DNA of 22,875 nt from a virus: the IMG/VR virus record IMGVR_UViG_3300042914_001412, positions 1 through 22,875 of that record; one strand, written 5' to 3'. Below, piece by piece: positions 9,703 to 21,236 of this stretch. Within the stretch, counting starts at the first letter, position 1, and each line of letters starts with the position of its first letter. Position numbers and translations under genes: made by a program. The notes beneath the pieces were generated by a model. The model saw only the letters and a list, made by a program, of their open reading frames with translations. It was not told the origin of the DNA and searched no databases.

Positions 9703-11232
9703 CTAGTGTCCCATCCATCCTGAAGAGGCTGTTCCACCACCATAACTGACGCGCGGTCTGTTGTCCATTGGTCTGGCCTCCCTGTGCGCCACAGGATACG
9801 CGAACGTCACGGCGATAGCGTCGGCGGCGTCGGGGCTGGCTAGACCACGCGCCTTCATGTCTTTCTTGCTTTCTAGGAATATAGTCCCTTTACTGTCGGG
9901 CTTCATCATGGGGCCGGTCAGGTCGCTCTTTAGGAAGCGGTCGTTTGGGATGCTGGCTGTCTTCAGCCACTCCCGCATGGCGTGCCACATTTCAGCGCGC
10001 TTGTTTCCGAACATGATCGGACGGGAAGACTTGCTGCCGAAGTTGACGCCCCTGATCTTGTATCGCTGCTCCTTGAGCCGGTCGACGACGCCCGCCCCTA
10101 GGCCGCCTTCGTCCACGACGACGAGCGCTGGGCGGAACTCTTCGATGATGTCAATGACTCTGCCGACCACCTCCATCGTGTCGTCGCCGCGGTAGCGACG
10201 GATGCCGATGATGTCACGGCCCTGCCGGATAGCGATGACCGTCGCGTCAGCCCCGAACCGCGCCGGGTCGACGCCCACGATTATCGGCGCTGTCTGATCT
10301 TTCTGCGGCGATCTTTGCTGCGCCTCCATGACCAGTGATGACGGTATGAACTGGTCATCGCTCGCGTTCGGGAAGGCTCCGTAGACCTCGACGTGAGCCT
10401 GAGCGCTGTCGGGGCCGTATTCGTCGATAATCTGCTGATAGACTGCCTTATCAGTTCCCTCCACGCTTCTGGCGTCAACAACCTTGTTTCGCCAGAAGTC
10501 GCGCTTGTTGTGGAAGCACTCGTAGAAGTATCCGCTGTTACGGCGGGGGTTGCTAAAGCTAAGCCAAAAACGATTAGGAGTGTTCTCTGTAAAGAAGCCA
10601 CTGGCCACCGCCCAGATAGAGTCATCAATACCGCTGGCCTCGTCGAACACGAGCATGACGCCCGCGAAGTTGTGCACGCCCGCGTAGCTGTCAGGGTTCT
10701 CGGCCGACCACAGCCGCCCCTCCACGCCCCAGTAACGCGTGCCCAGCTTTAGATCGCGCTCGACCAGTTCCGCAATCCACTTGGCCGGCAGCACGCGGGT
10801 GGCGCTTACCTCGAACCAATGGCTGTTGAGGCACATTGATAGCCATTTGGTGATCTCGGCCCAAGTGACGCTGCGTAGCTGCGCTTCTGAGTTGGCCGAC
10901 ACGATAGTCGTCGAGCCTATGCGCGTGGTCAGCATCCAGATCACGAGCCAACTCACGAGGGCTGACTTGCCGATACCGCGGCCGGAGGACGTGGCCATGC
11001 GAAAGGTTTCAAAGTCAACCTTGCCGTTATTCTCTTTGATGTGGTCGCGCAGGTCTTGGAGGACTTCTAGCTGCCACTTGCGCGGGCCTGTGAAGTGTTC
11101 CAGTGGCGTGCCGGCCTTACCCCACGGGAACGCCATCCTCACGAACGCGACCGGATCGTTCTTCACCTGCGCCGACCATAAGGTCGCCATCAGCTTCTGT
11201 TCTTCGTCCGCTGAGTAGATCGGCACTTGCAT
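9703..11232 (-). CDS. terL: Terminase large subunit
   Basis: The 509-residue packaging motor ATPase and nuclease. ATPase: Walker A GRGIGKS (residues 84-90), Walker B VMLVFDEA with Asp197 and Glu198, and coupling motif SNP near 227-229. Nuclease: first acidic residue Asp322 in IIVGVDPARFGADATVIAI, second Asp374 in VVVDEGGLGAGV, and third in SPDAADAIAVTF (Asp468/Asp471). Both halves are intact and the length is normal. The start ATG 11232 has GGGAGAG upstream. The first 116 bases overlap the 3' end of the small-subunit gene in another frame. It cuts concatemeric DNA and pumps it through the portal. The frame downstream is immediately followed by the three small basic genes. Confidence 0.95.
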   Translation of the reverse strand: MQVPIYSADEEQKLMATLWSAQVKNDPVAFVRMAFPWGKAGTPLEHFTGPRKWQLEVLQDLRDHIKENNGKVDFETFRMATSSGRGIGKSALVSWLVIWMLTTRIGSTTIVSANSEAQLRSVTWAEITKWLSMCLNSHWFEVSATRVLPAKWIAELVERDLKLGTRYWGVEGRLWSAENPDSYAGVHNFAGVMLVFDEASGIDDSIWAVASGFFTENTPNRFWLSFSNPRRNSGYFYECFHNKRDFWRNKVVDARSVEGTDKAVYQQIIDEYGPDSAQAHVEVYGAFPNASDDQFIPSSLVMEAQQRSPQKDQTAPIIVGVDPARFGADATVIAIRQGRDIIGIRRYRGDDTMEVVGRVIDIIEEFRPALVVVDEGGLGAGVVDRLKEQRYKIRGVNFGSKSSRPIMFGNKRAEMWHAMREWLKTASIPNDRFLKSDLTGPMMKPDSKGTIFLESKKDMKARGLASPDAADAIAVTFAYPVAHREARPMDNRPRVSYGGGTASSGWMGH

Positions 11233-11638
11233 CTAATATCTCTCCCTGGATCACGCGCTGCTGCGCCTCTTCTAGCGCCGCGATGATGGATATGCGCTGC
11301 TCGACCTGCACCTGCACCGACTGCGGGGCCGTCCACTTGTGGACGTGTTTTAGAATGTCCAGCGCCGCCTTCGTGTCGCCAGCGCGGGCGGCGTTGTGCA
11401 GCACCTCGGACATTTCCGCTTCGCCCTCAGCGCGCCCCTTCTGTTCGGCATACTCCGCGATGGGGTCGAACTGCACCAGCCGCCGATACTCGGTCGGGGT
11501 CATGCCCGCGGCGTAGGCGAGCGTGTCGCCTTTCAGCCCTTTGCGGGCGGCGAGATAGATGCGCTCTAGGACGGCTTCCGTCGCCTCTATTTTGCGCGGT
11601 TCATAAGGTAGGGACTCAAACATAAAGTCTTTTACCAT
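11117..11638 (-). CDS. terS: Probable terminase small subunit
   Basis: About 173 residues, directly upstream of the large subunit, the usual place for the DNA-recognition subunit. After a short N-terminus comes a helical HTH-like region, AVLERIYLAARKGLKGDTLA then YAAGMTPTEYRRLVQFDPIA, of the kind found in small terminases. It is followed by an oligomerisation-like helix (AEMSEVLHNAARAGDTKAAL) and DILKHVHKWTAPQSVQVQVE, a common terS ending motif. The last 38 residues are read in the region shared with the large subunit and look less constrained. Start choice is uncertain: ATG 11638 (MVKDFMFES) and ATG 11623 (MFESLPYEP) are both possible and neither has a good ribosome binding site. The open frame to 11728 has no good start. 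Confidence 0.8.
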   Translation of the reverse strand: MVKDFMFESLPYEPRKIEATEAVLERIYLAARKGLKGDTLAYAAGMTPTEYRRLVQFDPIAEYAEQKGRAEGEAEMSEVLHNAARAGDTKAALDILKHVHKWTAPQSVQVQVEQRISIIAALEEAQQRVIQGEILDASADLLSGRRTEADGDLMVGAGEERSGRVREDGVPVG

Positions 11639-11732
11639 TAAAATAAAAAATAAAAAAGTTCGCGTGATGGCTACGTATTTCTTAAAGGAGATCCCCAGGC
11701 CCAGCCCCCCCCTATTTGTCAACGCCACCTGC

Positions 11733-11756
11733 GTTAAGGTTAAATGTTAAGGTTAA
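11733..11756 (+). repeat. Tandem 11-bp repeat GTTAAGGTTAA
   Basis: Two identical copies of GTTAAGGTTAA at 11733-11743 and 11746-11756, 13 bases apart. The second runs into the perfect palindrome GGTTAACC (11751-11758). The site lies about 95 bases upstream of the small terminase start, where an operator for the leftward operon could sit. The binding protein is unknown. Confidence 0.8.
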
Positions 11757-11759
11757 CCA

Positions 11760-11928
11760 ATAGTCAAATAGTCATGCAGATCGGGGATCGGTGCTGGCAT
11801 GAGTTATGTTGTCAATCATAGTCAAATAGTCATGGAGATGCAGGGTTGGTGCTAGGTCGCACTGTGATGACTGCGCGGGCCTGGTCGACGAGGGCCAGGA
11901 GGCATAGTCAATAGTCATGATAGTCATG
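11760..11928 (+). repeat. Left arm: seven ATAGTCA direct repeats
   Basis: ATAGTCA occurs at 11760-11766, 11768-11774, 11818-11824, 11826-11832, 11904-11910, 11911-11917 and 11920-11926, all in the plus orientation, and four copies extend to ATAGTCATG. The first two pairs form an 18-bp unit (ATAGTCAAATAGTCATG core) repeated at a 58-bp interval. The third cluster is three near-tandem copies. Such short direct repeats resemble iterons or a repressor-binding array. Confidence 0.82.
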
Positions 11929-12012
11929 GATTTTAGATGCAAGGTTGCGCCCGTGTTCTATATATCATTCTGTATACATTCATACAATTGGTATGAGTAT
12001 TACACACCCATA

Positions 12013-12094
12013 ACTATATGACTATTCCTAAGCCGCGCCTCGCCTCGCGCCCGCGTTGTTGACGACTATTCCATAACTATTTCGTAACCATTCC
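12013..12094 (+). repeat. Right arm: ACTAT motifs with an 11-bp phased run
   Basis: The inverse core ACTAT occurs at 12013 (ACTATATG), 12021 (ACTATTCC), 12065 (ACTATTCC) and 12076 (ACTATTTC), with a variant ACCATTCC at 12087. The last three are spaced exactly 11 bases apart, close to one helical turn. They are in the opposite orientation to the left-arm ATAGTCA motifs, with an AT-rich core between the two arms. Confidence 0.72.
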
Positions 12095-12121
12095 GACATT
12101 TCACCAAAAGATTTGTTGCAA

Positions 12122-12130
12122 TTATCCACA
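12122..12130 (+). promoter_or_regulatory. Perfect DnaA box TTATCCACA
   Basis: TTATCCACA is an exact match to the bacterial DnaA box consensus TTATNCACA. It lies between the ACTAT array and the first rightward gene. The same operon encodes a stand-alone DnaA domain IV protein (15301-15534), which makes a chance match less likely. It could bind host DnaA, the phage protein, or both. Confidence 0.6.
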
Positions 12131-12143
12131 GTCCGTGGTCAGA

Positions 12144-12165
12144 TAACATATCCACAGAGAGGAGG
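12144..12165 (+). promoter_or_regulatory. AACATATCCACA leader motif 1 with strong ribosome binding site
   Basis: TAACATATCCACA (12144-12156) is followed by AGGAGG (12160-12165), 7 bases before the ATG at 12173. The ATATCCACA part differs from the DnaA box by one base. The same motif recurs at 12526 and 12986, each time just ahead of a ribosome binding site. The block GGAGG-N-ATAGTCA at 12161-12173 also occurs at 11898-11910. Confidence 0.65.
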
Positions 12166-12172
12166 AATAGTC

Positions 12173-12283
12173 ATGTATCAAGTCTACGTCTATCGCCATG
12201 ACTATTGGTTATTTGTCGACTCAACCGTTGACTTAGCCGCAGCGCAAGCGCTGGCGGCGCGCATTGGGGGGGTGGTCATATGA
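12173..12283 (+). CDS. Small early protein, 36 aa
   Basis: The first gene of the rightward operon, with AGGAGG seven bases ahead of the ATG. The 36 residues begin MYQVYVYRHDYWLFVDSTVD and end with an Ala-rich helix and GGVVI. There is no membrane segment or signal peptide. The stop overlaps the next start as ATGA (12280-12283). The layout (a beta strand YxVxV, an aromatic strand, a short Ala-rich helix AAAQALAARIGG) parallels the first 45 residues of the next gene, so the two may be paralogues. I do not recognise a family. The very strong ribosome binding site and the tight coupling argue that it is translated. Confidence 0.65.
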   Translation: MYQVYVYRHDYWLFVDSTVDLAAAQALAARIGGVVI

Positions 12284-12489
12284 CTATGACGGCGTATGAA
12301 GTGATGATCGAAACGCGTGACTTTCGTATGTCGCGCATCTTGGCGACGACTACGAAAGCGGAAGCAATCAAAGCGGCGCGGGAACTAGCTAGAACGAGCG
12401 GCGGCAAGGTGGCGTGGGTTCACGTGTTCAACATCCCGACCGCGTTGTCTGTCTTTTCGATGCAGGCGTTAACAAAATCTTTAGCATAA
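12280..12489 (+). CDS. Small alpha/beta protein, 69 aa
   Basis: A 69-residue protein beginning MTMTAYEVMIETRDFRMSRI, followed by TTTKAEAIKAARELARTSGG and KVAWVHVFNIPTAL. This is a beta-beta-alpha-beta pattern of the sort seen in tiny regulatory or host-interaction proteins. Translation is coupled to the preceding gene through ATGA. The second ATG two codons later (MTAYEV) is an alternative start. A strong hairpin terminator begins 5 bases after the stop, so the first two genes form a short transcript of their own when termination works. No family recognised. Confidence 0.7.
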   Translation: MTMTAYEVMIETRDFRMSRILATTTKAEAIKAARELARTSGGKVAWVHVFNIPTALSVFSMQALTKSLA

Positions 12490-12493
12490 TAAG

Positions 12494-12523
12494 AGGCGGC
12501 GCTTGCAAGAGCGCCGCCTTTAT
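12494..12523 (+). terminator. Intrinsic terminator or attenuator after the first two small genes
   Basis: The perfect 9-bp stem AGGCGGCGC / GCGCCGCCT (12494-12502 with 12511-12519) with an 8-base loop is followed by a short weak T tract (TTTAT). Because downstream genes continue on the same strand, it may act as a partial terminator, or as a break before a new promoter near 12526. Confidence 0.75.
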
Positions 12524-12525
12524 CG

Positions 12526-12551
12526 TAACATATCCACACTGTAAAAGAGGA
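12526..12551 (+). promoter_or_regulatory. AACATATCCACA leader motif 2
   Basis: TAACATATCCACA (12526-12538) comes 7 bases after the terminator tract. It is followed by GAGGAG (about 12546-12551), about 10 bases before the ATG at 12561. It is the same motif as at 12144 and 12986. The ATATCCACA part is one mismatch from a DnaA box. Confidence 0.6.
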
Positions 12552-12560
12552 GCCAAGACC

Positions 12561-12947
12561 ATGTGGGACAATTACAAGCCAACCAAAGCCGAGCGCGCCG
12601 CAATCGAGAACGCGTGGCAGGTCGTGTATCGGCTAACCGGCCATGACTGGCGGACAGAGGACATGACAAGGCAGGAGGCCAAAGGTTATGGCAACCGGCA
12701 TGACCGAATCGGGTTGAACGGCGCAAAGGCGCTGGCGGTCAAATGGTTCTATAATGGAACGCAACAGCCCGATCTAAAGCTGGCCGACTATTACTTTTGC
12801 CGGCCAGCGGCCATCTGGTTCACGGGATATGGCGCGTCGAAAGCCTACGCCATATCGGTCGAGGACGAAAACACATTAGTGGCCGGTCTGACCGCGCATG
12901 AAGACGCGTTTAAGCGCATGATCGATGAGAACAGAATAGCAGCATAA
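12561..12947 (+). CDS. Uncharacterised early protein, 128 aa
   Basis: A 128-residue protein beginning MWDNYKPTKAERAAIENAWQ. It contains VVYRLTGHDWRTEDMTRQEA, an aromatic middle block (KWFYNGTQQPDLKLADYYFC) and a helical end KRMIDENRIAA. There is no signal peptide. One cysteine (in YYFCRP) and several Trp/Tyr residues suggest a compact globular fold. I chose ATG 12561 because of the GAGGAG site upstream. The open frame extends to 12414, but that would run back through the terminator and leader. It is followed by a second hairpin and a third copy of the leader motif, so it may be a monocistronic unit. No family recognised. Confidence 0.75.
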   Translation: MWDNYKPTKAERAAIENAWQVVYRLTGHDWRTEDMTRQEAKGYGNRHDRIGLNGAKALAVKWFYNGTQQPDLKLADYYFCRPAAIWFTGYGASKAYAISVEDENTLVAGLTAHEDAFKRMIDENRIAA

Positions 12948-12953
12948 CTTACA

Positions 12954-12984
12954 GGCGGCGCTTCACGGCGTCGCCTTTTCTTTT
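12954..12984 (+). terminator. Second terminator-like hairpin
   Basis: The stem GGCGGCG (12954-12960) pairs with CGTCGCC (12969-12975) through one G-U pair and an 8-base loop, and is followed by TTTTCTTTTG. It starts 7 bases after the stop at 12947. Its 5' arm resembles that of the first hairpin. Confidence 0.78.
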
Positions 12985-12985
12985 G

Positions 12986-13005
12986 CAACATATCCACATA
13001 GGAGC
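12986..13005 (+). promoter_or_regulatory. AACATATCCACA leader motif 3
   Basis: CAACATATCCACA (12986-12998) directly follows the T-rich tract of the second hairpin and precedes AGGAGC, with the ATG at 13014. Three copies in three consecutive leaders imply a shared control signal rather than chance. Confidence 0.6.
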
Positions 13006-13013
13006 AAACGACA

Positions 13014-13499
13014 ATGACCAGCTTAAAAGAATGGATGGATCAACAGTGGCGCAACCCGGGCGTTAGGTTTTCCGGCCATGGCGTCGCGTATATCGGCACC
13101 TGTTTTAAAGATATGCAGGTTCGCGGCGGGTCAAATCGCACCTATAAGTCAAAAGAGCAAAAGGCGTATGAAGCGCGCTTCGGCATTTACAACAAAAAAC
13201 TTGTGCCGATCATCTTGGCCGAAGCAACACGCGACGACCGCTTTAGTCTGCCGCGCTATAGCTGGCCGAAGGAAGCGGAAGCCGCACAAGTAGCCGCGCC
13301 TGCCGTCGCCGTCATACCGCGCAAGCGCGTCTCGCATAAGAAGGTGACGCAAGCCGCCGCCATACTGGCCAAGGTGCCGCAGGACGAATTGACGGCTTTC
13401 CTAGCCAAGTTTGGCCTGTCACTGTCGCTCGCCGCGTCCATTGCGTCATTGGATAACGTCGAGCAGATCGCGCGTCAGTTTTTGAGGGCAACGCTATGA
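13014..13499 (+). CDS. Uncharacterised protein, 161 aa
   Basis: A 161-residue protein beginning MTSLKEWMDQQWRNPGVRFS and continuing FSGHGVAYIGTCFKDMQVRG. After a basic middle (SNRTYKSKEQKAYEARF) comes an Ala/Val/Pro-rich linker (residues 87-103). A helical C-terminal domain follows (KVTQAAAILAKVPQDELTAF, then LAKFGLSLSLAASIASLDNV). Two domains joined by a flexible linker are apparent, but I recognise neither. An AGGAGC site lies 10 bases before the ATG. The stop overlaps the next start as ATGA. It starts the longest unbroken coupled run of small genes (13014 to 15801). Confidence 0.75.
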   Translation: MTSLKEWMDQQWRNPGVRFSGHGVAYIGTCFKDMQVRGGSNRTYKSKEQKAYEARFGIYNKKLVPIILAEATRDDRFSLPRYSWPKEAEAAQVAAPAVAVIPRKRVSHKKVTQAAAILAKVPQDELTAFLAKFGLSLSLAASIASLDNVEQIARQFLRATL

Positions 13500-15130: not shown

Positions 15131-15353
15131 CCTCACAACCATCCCCGGCGGCGTCCGGGTCAACTGGCGCACCGGTGAGGGGCTAACCTTCCATCGGCGC
15201 GACGGCTCCCTGATAATGAAAATAAACGCCGACTACGCAGACGACCGCGCGCTGATGACCGCAGCGCACGCCCTCAATTTTATGTTTAGGAACATCAAAC
15301 ATGCTGGAACGGCAAATACAGGAACTGATCTGGGAGACGGCGGCCAAGTATAA
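15117..15353 (+). CDS. Small protein, 78 aa, GTG start
   Basis: A 78-residue protein. From GTG 15117 it reads LRLDLTTIPGGVRVNWRTGE and continues with GLTFHRRDGSLIMKINADYA, DDRALMTAAHALNFMFRNIK. A beta-rich N-terminal half is followed by a helix. I prefer GTG 15117 because the alternative TTG 15108 lies immediately on top of the GGGAGA site. The last 53 bases overlap the DnaA domain IV gene in another frame, so the C-terminal tail (HAGTANTGTDLGDGGQV) may be an overlap product. No family recognised. Confidence 0.62.
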   Translation: MLRLDLTTIPGGVRVNWRTGEGLTFHRRDGSLIMKINADYADDRALMTAAHALNFMFRNIKHAGTANTGTDLGDGGQV

Positions 15354-15534
15354 AATCTCCACAGACCTCTTGACCGGCCATAACCGCCGCAAAGAGGTCA
15401 TATGGCCCCGGTTCGAGGTCATGTGGCGCGCACGGCACGAGTTGAACGCACCCTATCAGACCATCGGCCAAGTGCTAGGCGGCCGGGATCATTCCACTAT
15501 CATGCACGGGATCAAACGCTATGAAAACCGCTGA
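15301..15534 (+). CDS. Stand-alone DnaA domain IV (DnaA-box-binding) protein
   Basis: 77 residues. IQELIWETAAKYKISTDLLT is followed by GHNRRKEVIWPRFEVMWRAR and then a helix-turn-helix: APYQTIGQVLGGRDHSTIMH, GIKRYENR. The segment GGRDHST (residues 60-66) is the DnaA signature in domain IV, where Asp, His and Ser/Thr contact the DnaA box. The Arg of the basic loop (R37) is present, but the following Gln is Phe here. No AAA+ domain is present, so this protein can bind DNA but cannot form an initiator filament. AGGA lies upstream of ATG 15301. It likely binds boxes at the phage origin or in leaders, or competes with host DnaA. The domain call is strong; the role is inference. Confidence 0.88.
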   Translation: MLERQIQELIWETAAKYKISTDLLTGHNRRKEVIWPRFEVMWRARHELNAPYQTIGQVLGGRDHSTIMHGIKRYENR

Positions 15535-16434: not shown

Positions 16435-16672
16435 GACCGAATCCGAGTTCGAGCGACGCCTCAAGGCGCTTCAACAGGAAATATCCGAAGCCTATCTTAA
16501 AGGATATGCAGAGGCCAGGCAACGGGCGCAATGGAACCTTACCGCCTGTCTCGACGAGGCGACGCGCCTCCGAAACGCCCTGGAATTCGCTCTCGATGAG
16601 GTGCAAGACCCCCATCGGAGAGCGCAAATCCTAATAGCCATGCGACGCCACAGCGAATCAGATCAAGAATGA
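16433..16672 (+). CDS. Small helical protein, 79 aa, divergent from its neighbour
   Basis: A 79-residue, highly charged helical protein: MTESEFERRLKALQQEISEA, YLKGYAEARQRAQWNLTACL, DEATRLRNALEFALDEVQDP and a basic/acidic tail. It looks like a helical bundle or coiled coil. Its ATG (16433-16435) shares CATG with the minus-strand ATG at 16434, so the promoters would lie inside each other's coding sequence. The stop lies within the end of the primase-helicase gene (10-base convergent overlap). No family recognised, and no clear ribosome binding site on this side. I judge it real because its composition is not that of a shadow frame. Confidence 0.6.
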   Translation: MTESEFERRLKALQQEISEAYLKGYAEARQRAQWNLTACLDEATRLRNALEFALDEVQDPHRRAQILIAMRRHSESDQE

Positions 16673-18975
16673 CGCAACGGCACCACATTGTCCGCCCCTC
16701 CGGGCTCGACCATATCGCGTAGATGGCTCTTCGGAAGATCAGCCAACTCCGGCCGCACAAATATGTGCCGCTTGGACTTGTTAGTTGTCGACAAACACAG
16801 CCCCTTGTCAACCCAGCCCGTCTCCTTCAGGGCGTGGAGCAGCGCCGGCTGCACGATCTTGAGATGCGAATTGACGGGGATAGCGTCGGATATGATCTTG
16901 ATGATGTTGTGCCAGGGGCCAGCGATAATGTCTGTGTTGAACGGCGCTTCGCGCTTCTCAATCAAGTGGTAAATGAAACTCTCTGCGTTGCTCATGCCGG
17001 TATAGACCAGCCGCTGCTTATATTCAGTCGTGAACGGGATCGCTTTCGGGTTGAACGCCGACACGTCACGCGCCTGTAACCAGCCGGCCACGGCTTCAAA
17101 CCCGCCGTTCTTATACCAACCCCAAATCCGTTGCGTTTCGTCCGAGGTCATCTTAGGCGCGTCAGACCAAACACAAAACCAGCGCCGGTCATCCGAATCA
17201 AGCGTGATCGGCATTGATTCATTCGTGAACGCCAGCAAGAAAATCCGGTTCGGCATTTCATACGGATGCAAGCCCTTGCGATTGACCGTCAGCATCTCCG
17301 GCGGCGCGGCGATTACAGGCTTGAGACGGTTCGCCAGCGCCCGGCGTTCCCGCGCCTCCGGCTCTTTCAGTTCATTCAGCACCATAACCTCAGTCTGATA
17401 ATGGTAGCCGAAGTCGCTCGTGATCTTGTCGCCGTCGATCACCTTCACGTTCTTCATGTGATCGCCGCCAATGGCCCACAAGAACGGATACCACATCGTA
17501 TCCTTGCCGATGCCGCCGTTGCCGCCATGCAGAACCGCATGGTTGATCTTCGTGCGCGGCTGTTGCAGCTTTACGGCCATCACGTCCCAAATATGATTTA
17601 ACTCGCGTTCGTCTGGCACGAGTCGACGGCAATGGTCGATCCACAGTTGCGGGTCGCCAGGGCTTTTGATCTCCGGCCGCGCGTCACGCCAGACGTTGCC
17701 ATAGACAAGCCCATCACGCTGCACTTTCCACTCGTCGCCGGCGGCGTAGGTCATGCCCTTCAGCGCGTAGCCTTTCATCGCCTCGCGGTTCTCGTCATAC
17801 CAGTTCGACGCTTCAAGCCGGCGCGGCTTCGCGCCAACAGACTTGCATTCTATATGCCGGAACAGCGCATTAAACGCACGGCGGCTGATCTCGCTGCACA
17901 TCTCATGGTCAAAGTAACCGTCGTCGTCGATGACATAGGCGAAGCGTTTATGCCATGTGGCGCGGTCTTCGCGTCCTGCTTGCTTACGCTCCGTCTCAGC
18001 GATACGCACCGCCGCCTCATCGGGGAATTCTTCGGTCGGCGTCAGTTTGTTAATCTTACTGGTATATTCGGCAATGAGGTCGTCACGCAATCCGGGGATG
18101 ACACGGGGGCCACCCTGTTCCGCCACCCAATCGCAAAAGAACTTGCTATCAAGACCGTCGCAATGACCATGATGACAACAGAATGAACGATCCTGCGGCT
18201 TGTATCGCGCTTCAATGCTGCCATCGGTATGCTCCGCATGATTCGGGCAAACAACGCCGCACCAACCGGCCGCGTTCGTGCCGGATAATACTAAGCTGTT
18301 CTCGCTCAACCATGCCAGCACCGTATCCGCGCCGTTGTCTTTTACGCGGAACGTAATAGCCCGAGCGGTGCCAGGTTCCGCAGGCGTCACACCGAACGCT
18401 GCAATCAATTCTTGGATCGTGTATTCAACGCCGGGATTAAACTCTACCTCACGGCAGATAAATTCCTCTTTGCCCGGCTTACGATTTACGGAACCCGGAA
18501 GACGGCAGTTACGCACAGCGTTACGCGCGCCTCTGTCCGTGTAATCAGCCGCGCCAAGCGCCTCGACAAATACGGTCTGTTCTTCGACTGTCGGCTGTTC
18601 ACTGTAGGCAAACCAATACTGGTAGCTGCCTTCGCTTGTCTCGACGATAGCGGTCGGCTTGACCGGCGGCGTTTTGATGACAACGCTCTCGCCGTCATAG
18701 ACTTTCGTTTCGCCAATATCGTCCAGCATAAGGAACAGCACATGCGTGCAGTTCGCCAGCGCCGCAGACGGCTTTTCCGGCATACGATCCTTGATAAACG
18801 AGCCGGTGTTTAAAAACCAACTTTCACCGGCTTTGCGTTTATGCGTCGGGTAATACGCGGGCCAAGTATATTTACGCTTACCGTCAGCGTGATGCTTGCC
18901 AGTGTCGATCTGCTTGACAATAAGGGCTGTCTCGCCAGCCGGCGCGAGGCCGGTAAAATAATCGAACAAATTCAT
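16663..18975 (-). CDS. Primase-helicase fusion (AEP-like primase plus SF3-type helicase)
   Basis: A 770-residue replication protein. The N-terminal third resembles archaeo-eukaryotic/RepB-type primases, with HVLFLMLDDIGE carrying Asp85-Asp86, SEGSYQYWF (114-122) and NCRLPGSVNRKPG (156-168). A zinc-finger-like segment follows (CGVVCPNH at 239-246 and CCHHGHC at 266-272). The C-terminal half has a P-loop, LHGGNGGIGKDT (482-493). It also has the conserved DFGYHYQTEVMVLNELKEPE, FTNES near 583-587 and DSDDRRWFCVW, which match SF3/DUF5906-type helicases. It should prime and unwind DNA for the family A polymerase further upstream in the operon. The start overlaps the HNH stop by 4 bases (ATGA). Confidence 0.87.
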   Translation of the reverse strand: MNLFDYFTGLAPAGETALIVKQIDTGKHHADGKRKYTWPAYYPTHKRKAGESWFLNTGSFIKDRMPEKPSAALANCTHVLFLMLDDIGETKVYDGESVVIKTPPVKPTAIVETSEGSYQYWFAYSEQPTVEEQTVFVEALGAADYTDRGARNAVRNCRLPGSVNRKPGKEEFICREVEFNPGVEYTIQELIAAFGVTPAEPGTARAITFRVKDNGADTVLAWLSENSLVLSGTNAAGWCGVVCPNHAEHTDGSIEARYKPQDRSFCCHHGHCDGLDSKFFCDWVAEQGGPRVIPGLRDDLIAEYTSKINKLTPTEEFPDEAAVRIAETERKQAGREDRATWHKRFAYVIDDDGYFDHEMCSEISRRAFNALFRHIECKSVGAKPRRLEASNWYDENREAMKGYALKGMTYAAGDEWKVQRDGLVYGNVWRDARPEIKSPGDPQLWIDHCRRLVPDERELNHIWDVMAVKLQQPRTKINHAVLHGGNGGIGKDTMWYPFLWAIGGDHMKNVKVIDGDKITSDFGYHYQTEVMVLNELKEPEARERRALANRLKPVIAAPPEMLTVNRKGLHPYEMPNRIFLLAFTNESMPITLDSDDRRWFCVWSDAPKMTSDETQRIWGWYKNGGFEAVAGWLQARDVSAFNPKAIPFTTEYKQRLVYTGMSNAESFIYHLIEKREAPFNTDIIAGPWHNIIKIISDAIPVNSHLKIVQPALLHALKETGWVDKGLCLSTTNKSKRHIFVRPELADLPKSHLRDMVEPGGADNVVPLRHS

Positions 18976-19349: not shown

Positions 19350-21236
19350 CTATTTCCCGTAACGCGACATAACGCTCGCCTCCACGTCTAGCGGTAAACC
19401 TTCCGCCCAAACAGGTGGGGTCGTCATTACTTCTTCTAGGAGCGCCTTCGCCTCTTCGGGCCGATCAGACTCCATAACAATTTCATCGTGAACATGCAGA
19501 ACAACGTCAGGCAGACGGCGCAAAGCCTCGCGTAAAAGATCATGGGCGGTCGCTTGTGTGACGTTCTCGCACGCAAGCCCTCGCCAAAGCCTGCCACGCG
19601 GCCACTCTTTAGCATCCGCCGCAGGCTTCCAAGACGCCTTTGAATAGGTGATCGAACCATCGTCTTCAAACTTGGCGTTCGGGTAGCACAGCACGCGGCC
19701 GGAAGGGAGAGCATACCAAAGGTGCTGACCGTCAGCCAAGTAAGATATGCGGCCGGCTGTGAATACTCTGCCGGGGTTGCGCAGCGCACGAATGTAAGCA
19801 ACCTCAAGGTCAGACCAGAACGGAACCGACCACACGTTTGTGCGACGCCATGCGTCTACCATACGTCGTGCCTCTTCTTCAGGAAGGCTCAACCCATAGA
19901 CGCGGCCCATCGCAGCGAACGCGCCGATTCCGCCGCCGAAACCGCACGCCAGTTCCTGCACCTTACCGACCTGGCGCTGCGACTTATTGACACTATCATA
20001 CGGCACGCGGAACGTAGCGGCTGCGTTGACGACGTAAGGATCTAACTTATCACGGAACTGTTGTAACTTATCCTCACCCCTACCGGACAACCATGGATTT
20101 ACGCGGCCTTCGATGGCCGACCAGTCAGCGACGACGAATTGTTTACCGGGCGCAGGGATTAAGGCGGGCCGTAACATACCCCGCAAAACGTCTGTGACAC
20201 GTCGTCCGTAGTTAGGCACGATGGCATGGCCGCGAACCATTGAATGTCGCACGGATTCTGGGTCTTCGGCGCATTGACGTGTAAAGTTGTGGACTTGCGC
20301 ACCATACGAGGAAGCGCGCCCTGTGGCTGATCCTCCCGCAAAGACGAAAGCCCCTCTAACACGGCCATCACTACAAGCAAGATTATCAAGGCGATTAAAT
20401 TTAGCAACAGAAGACGCCCAAAGGTCGTCAGCGCATTGTATGACTTCTCTGACATCGGGAGGCACCTCCTCTGGGTCGTCTATGGCCAGTAGGTTCGCGC
20501 GGACTGATTTGTCGATTGAGACTTTATCGGCACGTTCCATAAGTTTACGCGCTTCTGATCCAACACGTTCAAAGACCCATTCGCGCATACGGGGACTTCT
20601 GACCGATTGAATCGCGCCATCGGTGATTTCACGAACAGTAGTCTCGATCTCTTGAAGTTCGTCAGCCGCGTATTTGACCGCCGCACGGCATAGACGCTGA
20701 TCGACAAGAACGCCACGGTCATTGATGCGCTCGTTAGTGTGATAATCATCTAGTTCCTCCTGCGTCAGTTCCCGCATGGCTTTACTGGCGGCGCGCATTG
20801 TTCTAACGTCTTGCTCGCAGTATTCGATAAGTTCCGGTATGAGATCATCACGGTATGGAGGAATGCAGCAAGCACGAACCAGAGCAGCGCCACGATGATC
20901 TTTGCGCATTTCAGTTCCGGCGAATCGTCCGACATCTTCTAAACTCCCTGGCGCACAGTTCGCCCGCGCTTGCGCAGCGGTGCAGTAGAATTGTTCAAGC
21001 GGTATATCCATCTTGAGGACGTGCCAAAAGATAAGCCGCTCGAACGCCGCGTTGTGAGCCCGAATCTGACCCGTAATCTCCGGCATAGGTTCACCCGGCC
21101 GCCATGTCTGCACAGGGCCGTCATCAATAGCATACGACATGCAAATAACTTGCGTTGACGGATGACGGGCGTAGTTATATACGCCCGCCGTCTTCAGATC
21201 GCATTCCGATCTTGTCTCGAAATCGAGCCAGATCAT
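19350..21236 (-). CDS. Family A DNA polymerase with 3'-5' exonuclease
   Basis: A 628-residue replicative polymerase. Exonuclease: Asp5 and Glu7 in MIWLDFETRSE, the Exo II block AHNAAFER (60-67) and Exo III YCEQDVRTM (Tyr139, Asp143). Polymerase: conserved GGSATGRASSYGAQVHNFTR (301-320); motif A VVADWSAIEGRV (Asp371, Glu376); motif B RQVGKVQELACGFGG (Arg421, Lys425, Leu429, Phe433); motif C HVHDEIVME (Asp584, Glu585). The 5' nuclease domain of Pol I is absent, as usual in phage enzymes. Leu429 aligns with E. coli Phe762. The start overlaps an exported small protein by 4 bases. It is expected to copy the phage genome with the primase-helicase encoded downstream. Confidence 0.95.
   Translation of the reverse strand: MIWLDFETRSECDLKTAGVYNYARHPSTQVICMSYAIDDGPVQTWRPGEPMPEITGQIRAHNAAFERLIFWHVLKMDIPLEQFYCTAAQARANCAPGSLEDVGRFAGTEMRKDHRGAALVRACCIPPYRDDLIPELIEYCEQDVRTMRAASKAMRELTQEELDDYHTNERINDRGVLVDQRLCRAAVKYAADELQEIETTVREITDGAIQSVRSPRMREWVFERVGSEARKLMERADKVSIDKSVRANLLAIDDPEEVPPDVREVIQCADDLWASSVAKFNRLDNLACSDGRVRGAFVFAGGSATGRASSYGAQVHNFTRQCAEDPESVRHSMVRGHAIVPNYGRRVTDVLRGMLRPALIPAPGKQFVVADWSAIEGRVNPWLSGRGEDKLQQFRDKLDPYVVNAAATFRVPYDSVNKSQRQVGKVQELACGFGGGIGAFAAMGRVYGLSLPEEEARRMVDAWRRTNVWSVPFWSDLEVAYIRALRNPGRVFTAGRISYLADGQHLWYALPSGRVLCYPNAKFEDDGSITYSKASWKPAADAKEWPRGRLWRGLACENVTQATAHDLLREALRRLPDVVLHVHDEIVMESDRPEEAKALLEEVMTTPPVWAEGLPLDVEASVMSRYGK

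Follow-up and report, generated by a model that had tools for sequence, protein, structure and literature searches.

Opposed repeat arrays that vary with the phage's own primase-helicase mark a probable replication origin in a podovirus-type phage group

The repeat locus between the terminase and early genes

The window, that is, the whole stretch of DNA analysed, is an entire IMG/VR record of 22,875 bases and is probably a fragment of a P22-like podovirus, with portal, terminase and scaffold genes to the left of a repeat array and PolA and a primase-helicase to its right. The array lies in the gap separating the leftward TerS/TerL operon from the rightward early genes, in agreement with the position between divergent operons given in an earlier reading of the letters (the sequence-only reading). 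The features around this gap are the following.

11117..11638, minus strand: TerS homologue, excluded as array reader (an identical protein accompanies a different motif in the relative L085)
11760..11926, plus strand: left array of seven exact ATAGTCA copies (11760, 11768, 11818, 11826, 11904, 11911, 11920), tandem spacing 7-9 bp
11952..12012, no strand: AT-rich core, candidate DNA-unwinding element, carrying CTGTATACATT, which is retained in L085
12013..12091, minus strand: right array (TAACTAT, GACTAT, GACTAT, TAACTAT, TAACCAT, some degenerate), opposite in orientation to the left array
12123..12156, plus strand: two DnaA-box-like TATCCACA sites, 26 bp apart (starts 12123, 12149), ahead of the first early gene; likely to be a regulatory element of its own
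12167..12173, plus strand: additional exact ATAGTCA, placed after the Shine-Dalgarno and before the ATG of the first early gene
12199..12205, minus strand: additional exact ATAGTCA within the first early gene
12281..12287, minus strand: additional exact ATAGTCA at the start of the second early gene
15301..15534, plus strand: stand-alone DnaA domain IV protein (77 aa, PF08299), less favoured as array reader

The seven right-pointing ATAGTCA of the sequence-only reading (11760-11926) are all exact copies, and its four left-pointing ACTAT motifs (12013, 12021, 12065 and 12076) and single ACCAT variant (12087) are present as well. The exact copies at 12167, 12199 and 12281 and the two TATCCACA sites right of the array are additions to what that reading listed. 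Between the innermost opposed copies the G+C content is about 34%, compared with 48% in the surrounding region; the AT-rich stretch of that reading is therefore real, and it supplies the adjacent candidate unwinding region expected of an iteron origin. On both strands of the whole record, ATAGTCA was found 13 times against 1.43 expected, a number that none of 100 dinucleotide shuffles of the record attained, and 11 of the 13 copies are confined to 11760-12287. The motif, whose enrichment over shuffled controls had been proposed as a check and whose equal density elsewhere would have spoken against the element, is thus enriched and clustered at one genome site, as the short repeats of iteron origins are. 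Pairs of the form ATAGTCA-N0-3-ATAGTCA occur four times in the record, all at the array (zero in the reversed-pattern control). An Rfam search of 11500-12600 returned no match, a promoter scan returned nothing exceeding shuffles, and the extremes of GC skew, a further check suggested earlier, did not clearly point to the array as the start site.

Conserved layout and lineage-specific motifs

Relatives were obtained by searching IMG/VR with TerL and TerS; a related TerL is found on hundreds of its contigs, and the comparison at the equivalent spot covered about 60 non-identical relatives. Some retain ATAGTCA there, but it is missing from close relatives, including some whose TerS is identical. 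A search for any repeated 7-mer at the equivalent locus gave the reason: the array of these relatives consists of another motif. The classes among 63 non-identical loci are ATAGTC (A), ATCGYC (C), TTATGC or TTAGGC (Y), TTAGGG (T), A/TTGGTC (G), ATTGTC (I), ATTGGC/TTGGGC (N) and a few others, with the best 7-mer often, though not at every locus, above 30 order-1 resamplings of its region, and with arrays weak or undetected in some relatives.

The layout is shared across these motifs. Left of the core the relatives' loci carry 203 forward and 8 reverse copies, and right of it 11 forward and 118 reverse, with tandem copies mostly spaced 8 or 9 bp apart and the AT-rich core retained. In 22 of 44 loci, spread over classes A, C, G, T and Y, a distance of 99-101 bp separates the innermost opposed copies, and in most of the others it is 83-106 bp; the pair was selected as forward-then-reverse and 50-200 bp apart, so that its own orientation is imposed, whereas the orientation of the other copies and the narrow spacing peak are not. 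Conservation in related phages thus holds for the array and its layout and fails for the letters of the motif. The sequence-only reading had counted a motif not conserved in related phages as refutation, a rule that would have misfired, since it is the letters that differ from lineage to lineage and the array with its layout that stays. The array at 11760-12091 is a real, conserved functional element.

Several class assignments were dropped. Because sequence near the core confounded it, a 'GTTTACA' class was abandoned except for the distant relative MW202483, which has a GTTTACAT array at 28224-28478 with eight of the nine copies in its genome and a one-sided orientation. The GATCCC repeats of L025/L026 are a simple-sequence run (the same loci also have TTTATGC-type copies), and the N labels of L213 and L135 were too weak to keep.

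Covariation of the motif with the primase-helicase

The adjacent terminase was considered as a reader of the repeats. A terminase recognition site (pac or cosB-like), at which TerS would bind the repeats to begin packaging, would suit an array that adjoins terS, and in lambda-like phages the TerS sites are repeated and situated beside terS. This explanation retains hardly any probability: TerS of L085, L086 and L088 is 100% identical to that of the window, yet their array is ATCGCCA, and the 15 changes of motif class on the TerS tree are near the lowest of 200 shuffles (16). An identical protein with a different motif, together with these 15 changes, rules TerS out as array reader, and the lambda-type cos/pac arrangement, in which TerS sets repeat specificity, was not found here.

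A more distant gene, about 4.6 kb from the array, follows the motif more closely.

16663..18975, minus strand: primase-helicase (770 aa), proposed initiator, with a RepB_primase N-terminal domain, a DUF5906/SF3 helicase and a predicted C-terminal winged helix
16666..16998, minus strand: its C-terminal domain, aa 660-770 (AlphaFold2 mean pLDDT 88), proposed array reader
16768..16797, minus strand: variable wing, codons 727-736; residue 728 (16792-16794) is Leu in the window

The variation of the motif with the C-terminus of this protein was first noticed and then tested on trees of 34 shared taxa, on which changes of motif class were counted for each protein. The class changes 8 times on the tree of the primase C-terminal domain (minimum 7), still 8 times when the wing is removed from that domain, 10 times on the primase N-terminal tree and 15 times on each of the TerL and TerS trees, compared with about 19.5 changes on average for shuffled classes. 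Pairwise comparisons favour the C-terminal domain over PolA, the DnaA domain IV protein and ORF13014. Judged by these sequence comparisons, the array motif follows the C-terminal domain of the primase-helicase and not the adjacent terminase genes; the repeat changes in step with the predicted DNA-binding tail of the protein, and each lineage therefore appears to have its own lock-and-key pair.

Just 1 of the 770 primase columns separates seven ATAGTC from seven ATCGYC proteins, namely residue 728 (Leu/Met versus Cys/Ser), and 53 of the 1716 possible 7/7 splits possess any separating column. Residues 728 and 731 are the most informative columns for classes A, C and Y, with residue 728 being Leu/Met in 9/9 class A, Ser/Cys in 10/11 class C and Tyr in 17/17 class Y proteins. 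The sole exception, L089, combines an ATCGTC-type array with a Tyr-type wing; the lineage affinity of its contig (IMGVR_UViG_3300046001_006737) changes between 1.8 and 2.7 kb (1800-2700), and L089 may therefore be a recombinant or a chimeric assembly. Supported independent A/C contrasts number only three or four, all concordant and too few for p<0.05, so that the covariation statistics are suggestive and not closed. When further contigs were screened to try the residue-728 rule prospectively, none proved to belong to class A, C or Y.

It is worth asking whether the covariation is phylogeny or linkage only, with neighbouring genes co-travelling and another protein reading the array. The few independent A/C switches would fit this, as would the primase N-terminal half, which also tracks the motif moderately (10 changes). 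We regard it as unlikely, as TerS (<150 bp from the array) and ORF13014 (~1 kb) track the motif worse than the primase (~4.6 kb), and the single A/C-separating column is situated in the predicted DNA-binding wing. Linkage alone is insufficient because ORF13014, although closer to the array, fits the motif worse than the primase; this ORF (13014-13499) was rejected as array reader because near-identical proteins accompany different motifs (L015/L019) and divergent ones the same motif (L091/window).

Domains and predicted structure of the primase-helicase

Pfam recognises RepB_primase and DUF5906 in the primase-helicase, and an SF3 (AAA+) helicase domain, as found in the initiators of SaPI-type systems, is supported by sequence and fold matches to 6k9c and by fold matches to 7pds/7ola. 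The helicase part matches the C-terminal region of NrS-1 polymerase (6k9c) at 4.8e-7 by sequence and 2.7e-13 by fold, and the primase-helicase matches SaPI PriRep1 by fold at 1.7e-7; the whole-protein model has a mean pLDDT of 76 and a pTM of 0.41. In the AlphaFold2 model of aa 660-770, the elements follow the winged-helix order (helix, strand, helix, helix, strand, strand, helix), and the predicted wing joins two strands of the winged helix and has residue 728 at its start. Foldseek with the isolated C-terminal domain model against the PDB gave no significant match (best E 0.26), and a search for stand-alone copies of the domain in relatives found none.

DnaA-like boxes and regulatory alternatives

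TATCCACA occurs four times in the window against 0.34 expected (12123, 12149, 12531 and 12991, plus strand). All four share one orientation, precede early genes and stand 15-42 bp from the following ATG. Every relative whose DnaA domain IV protein shows 71% identity or more has two to five copies, which become fewer as the protein diverges. The boxes and the protein look like a separate regulatory pair, though one confounded with phylogeny, and the protein is possibly a phage DnaA-like regulator with TATCCACA operators. The HTH or DnaA-domain binder named in the sequence-only reading fits the array less well: the DnaA domain IV protein tracks the motif worse than the primase and fits better with the separate TATCCACA boxes than with ATAGTCA. 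Two similar cassettes were observed at 12494-12541 and 12953-13001, in each of which a GC stem resembling a terminator precedes (T)AACATATCCACA and the start of an early gene.

Two DnaA-box-like sites adjoining the array, in a phage that encodes DnaA domain IV, could also mean that the origin is read directly by host or phage DnaA and that the ATAGTCA array is accessory. This is very unlikely, given that the boxes recur singly ahead of later early genes (12531, 12991) in a single orientation and are absent in relatives that retain the array, and that ATAGTCA bears no resemblance to a DnaA box and changes along with the primase. The array is not built of DnaA boxes, as an oriC-type origin would be; its motif is ATAGTCA, with only the four TATCCACA in the window.

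A further alternative is a cooperative operator, at which a phage repressor or activator would control the divergent TerS and early promoters. Such a role would account for the position between divergent operons and for the exact ATAGTCA (12167) that overlaps the start of the first early gene. However, the covarying protein is the primase-helicase and not a dedicated regulator, the two regulator candidates (the DnaA domain IV protein and ORF13014) track the motif worse, and the TATCCACA boxes ahead of the early genes are a better operator candidate, which makes this alternative improbable. A secondary role is conceivable in which the bound initiator also represses the genes on either side. In the earlier proposal of an origin or switch, the iteron origin is well supported by the layout in relatives and the covariation with the primase-helicase, whereas a switch or operator as the main role is not.

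A probable origin with a matched initiator

We consider it likely that 11760-12091 is a phage replication origin, bidirectional and read by the phage's own SF3 primase-helicase via its C-terminal winged helix. Through this domain, copies of the primase-helicase would attach to the ATAGTCA repeats in double-stranded form, with the wing determining which repeat is recognised. Since the arrays face each other across the AT-rich core, they would bring together two helicase hexamers in a head-to-head arrangement, which would then melt the core and launch forks in both directions, while the fused primase would make primers for extension by the phage DNA polymerase (19350-21236). The most economical reading, we infer, is that an SF3 initiator loads itself, reads the repeats with its C-terminus and forms two opposed assemblies that melt the core between them, and the origin type is a variant within the known iteron/SF3-initiator kind.

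Several known systems share parts of this arrangement. Phage P4 alpha is a primase-helicase whose C-terminal winged-helix origin-binding domain recognises type I iterons; the likeness lies in a primase-helicase with a C-terminal winged helix (predicted here), whereas layout and motif differ, and a structural match of the present domain to the P4 domain was not obtained. SV40 T-antigen and papillomavirus E1 are SF3 helicases loaded on opposed sites beside an AT-rich stretch, but in these eukaryotic viruses the origin-binding domain is N-terminal, whereas the reader proposed here is C-terminal. SaPI Rep, which has been likened to both, uses its C-terminal domain to recognise the iterons of its origin and apparently does so as two hexamers (PMC7581432). 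The likeness to SaPI Rep/ori (also SCCmec Cch2) is the initiator helicase with a C-terminal iteron reader, as proposed here, and the solved structure of SaPI PriRep1 matches the present protein in fold; no solved structure similar to the C-terminal domain was found in this comparison. However, the SaPI ori is directly downstream of rep, whereas the phage array (11.8-12.1 kb) lies between terS and the early operon, 4.6 kb off from the primase gene, which ends at 16,663; moreover, SaPI is a satellite and this is a podovirus-type phage.

Among solved structures, the NrS-1 phage primase-polymerase comes closest to the helicase part, both in sequence and in fold. NrS-1 Pol initiates on an 8-nt template motif, TTTGGTTA, which is read by the HBD and occurs twice in the genome (PMC7102993, PMC8718748), in contrast to the many copies in opposed arrays, covarying with the C-terminal domain, in the present phage. 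In the PLE satellites of Vibrio cholerae, the DNA-binding domain of the initiator RepA covaries with the origin iterons, the pairs swap as a module, and the covariation was experimentally shown to reflect specificity (PMC8263062); that initiator is of another family, with RepA_N at the N-terminus and ~30-bp iterons.

More tentatively, and with some doubt on our part, wing changes as small as residue 728 and matching arrays might repeatedly rewrite initiator/origin specificity in these freshwater phages, yielding mutually exclusive replicon types and a legible wing-to-motif code over at least 10 motifs. The driver of such changes may be satellites or origin-directed nucleases that copy initiator specificity (the PLE/ICP1 case), or the avoidance of cross-replication in co-infection. 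A probable origin and initiator are now proposed for a group of freshwater phages that is abundant and mostly uncultured, and the natural series of matched protein/DNA pairs allows co-change of initiator and origin specificity without loss of function to be tested directly, with one residue (728) predicted to account for the A-to-C change in the repeat.

Variant arrays and neighbouring elements

Related primases (L255-L262) were observed on contigs binned in freshwater metagenome-assembled genomes, several of them betaproteobacterial, e.g. Rhodoferax, which is a hint only to the host because binning of phage contigs is unreliable. Among more distant contigs, ATGGACA is common to four with near-identical wings and CGGCA to three with similar wings. 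GTTAGTG/CACTAAC arrays appear in a distant subgroup (L305, L307, L312, L313), and in L313 they adjoin ATGGACA repeats, which suggests that two array types occur together there. L015, L037, L110 and L130 carry a second repeat, CTGTAATTTTACA/ATTACAG, within and right of the core, and their sequence beyond the array is unlike that of the window. In MW202483 (L252), an annotated homing endonuclease (27644-28090) lies between terS and the array; it recalls the origin-directed nuclease of ICP1.
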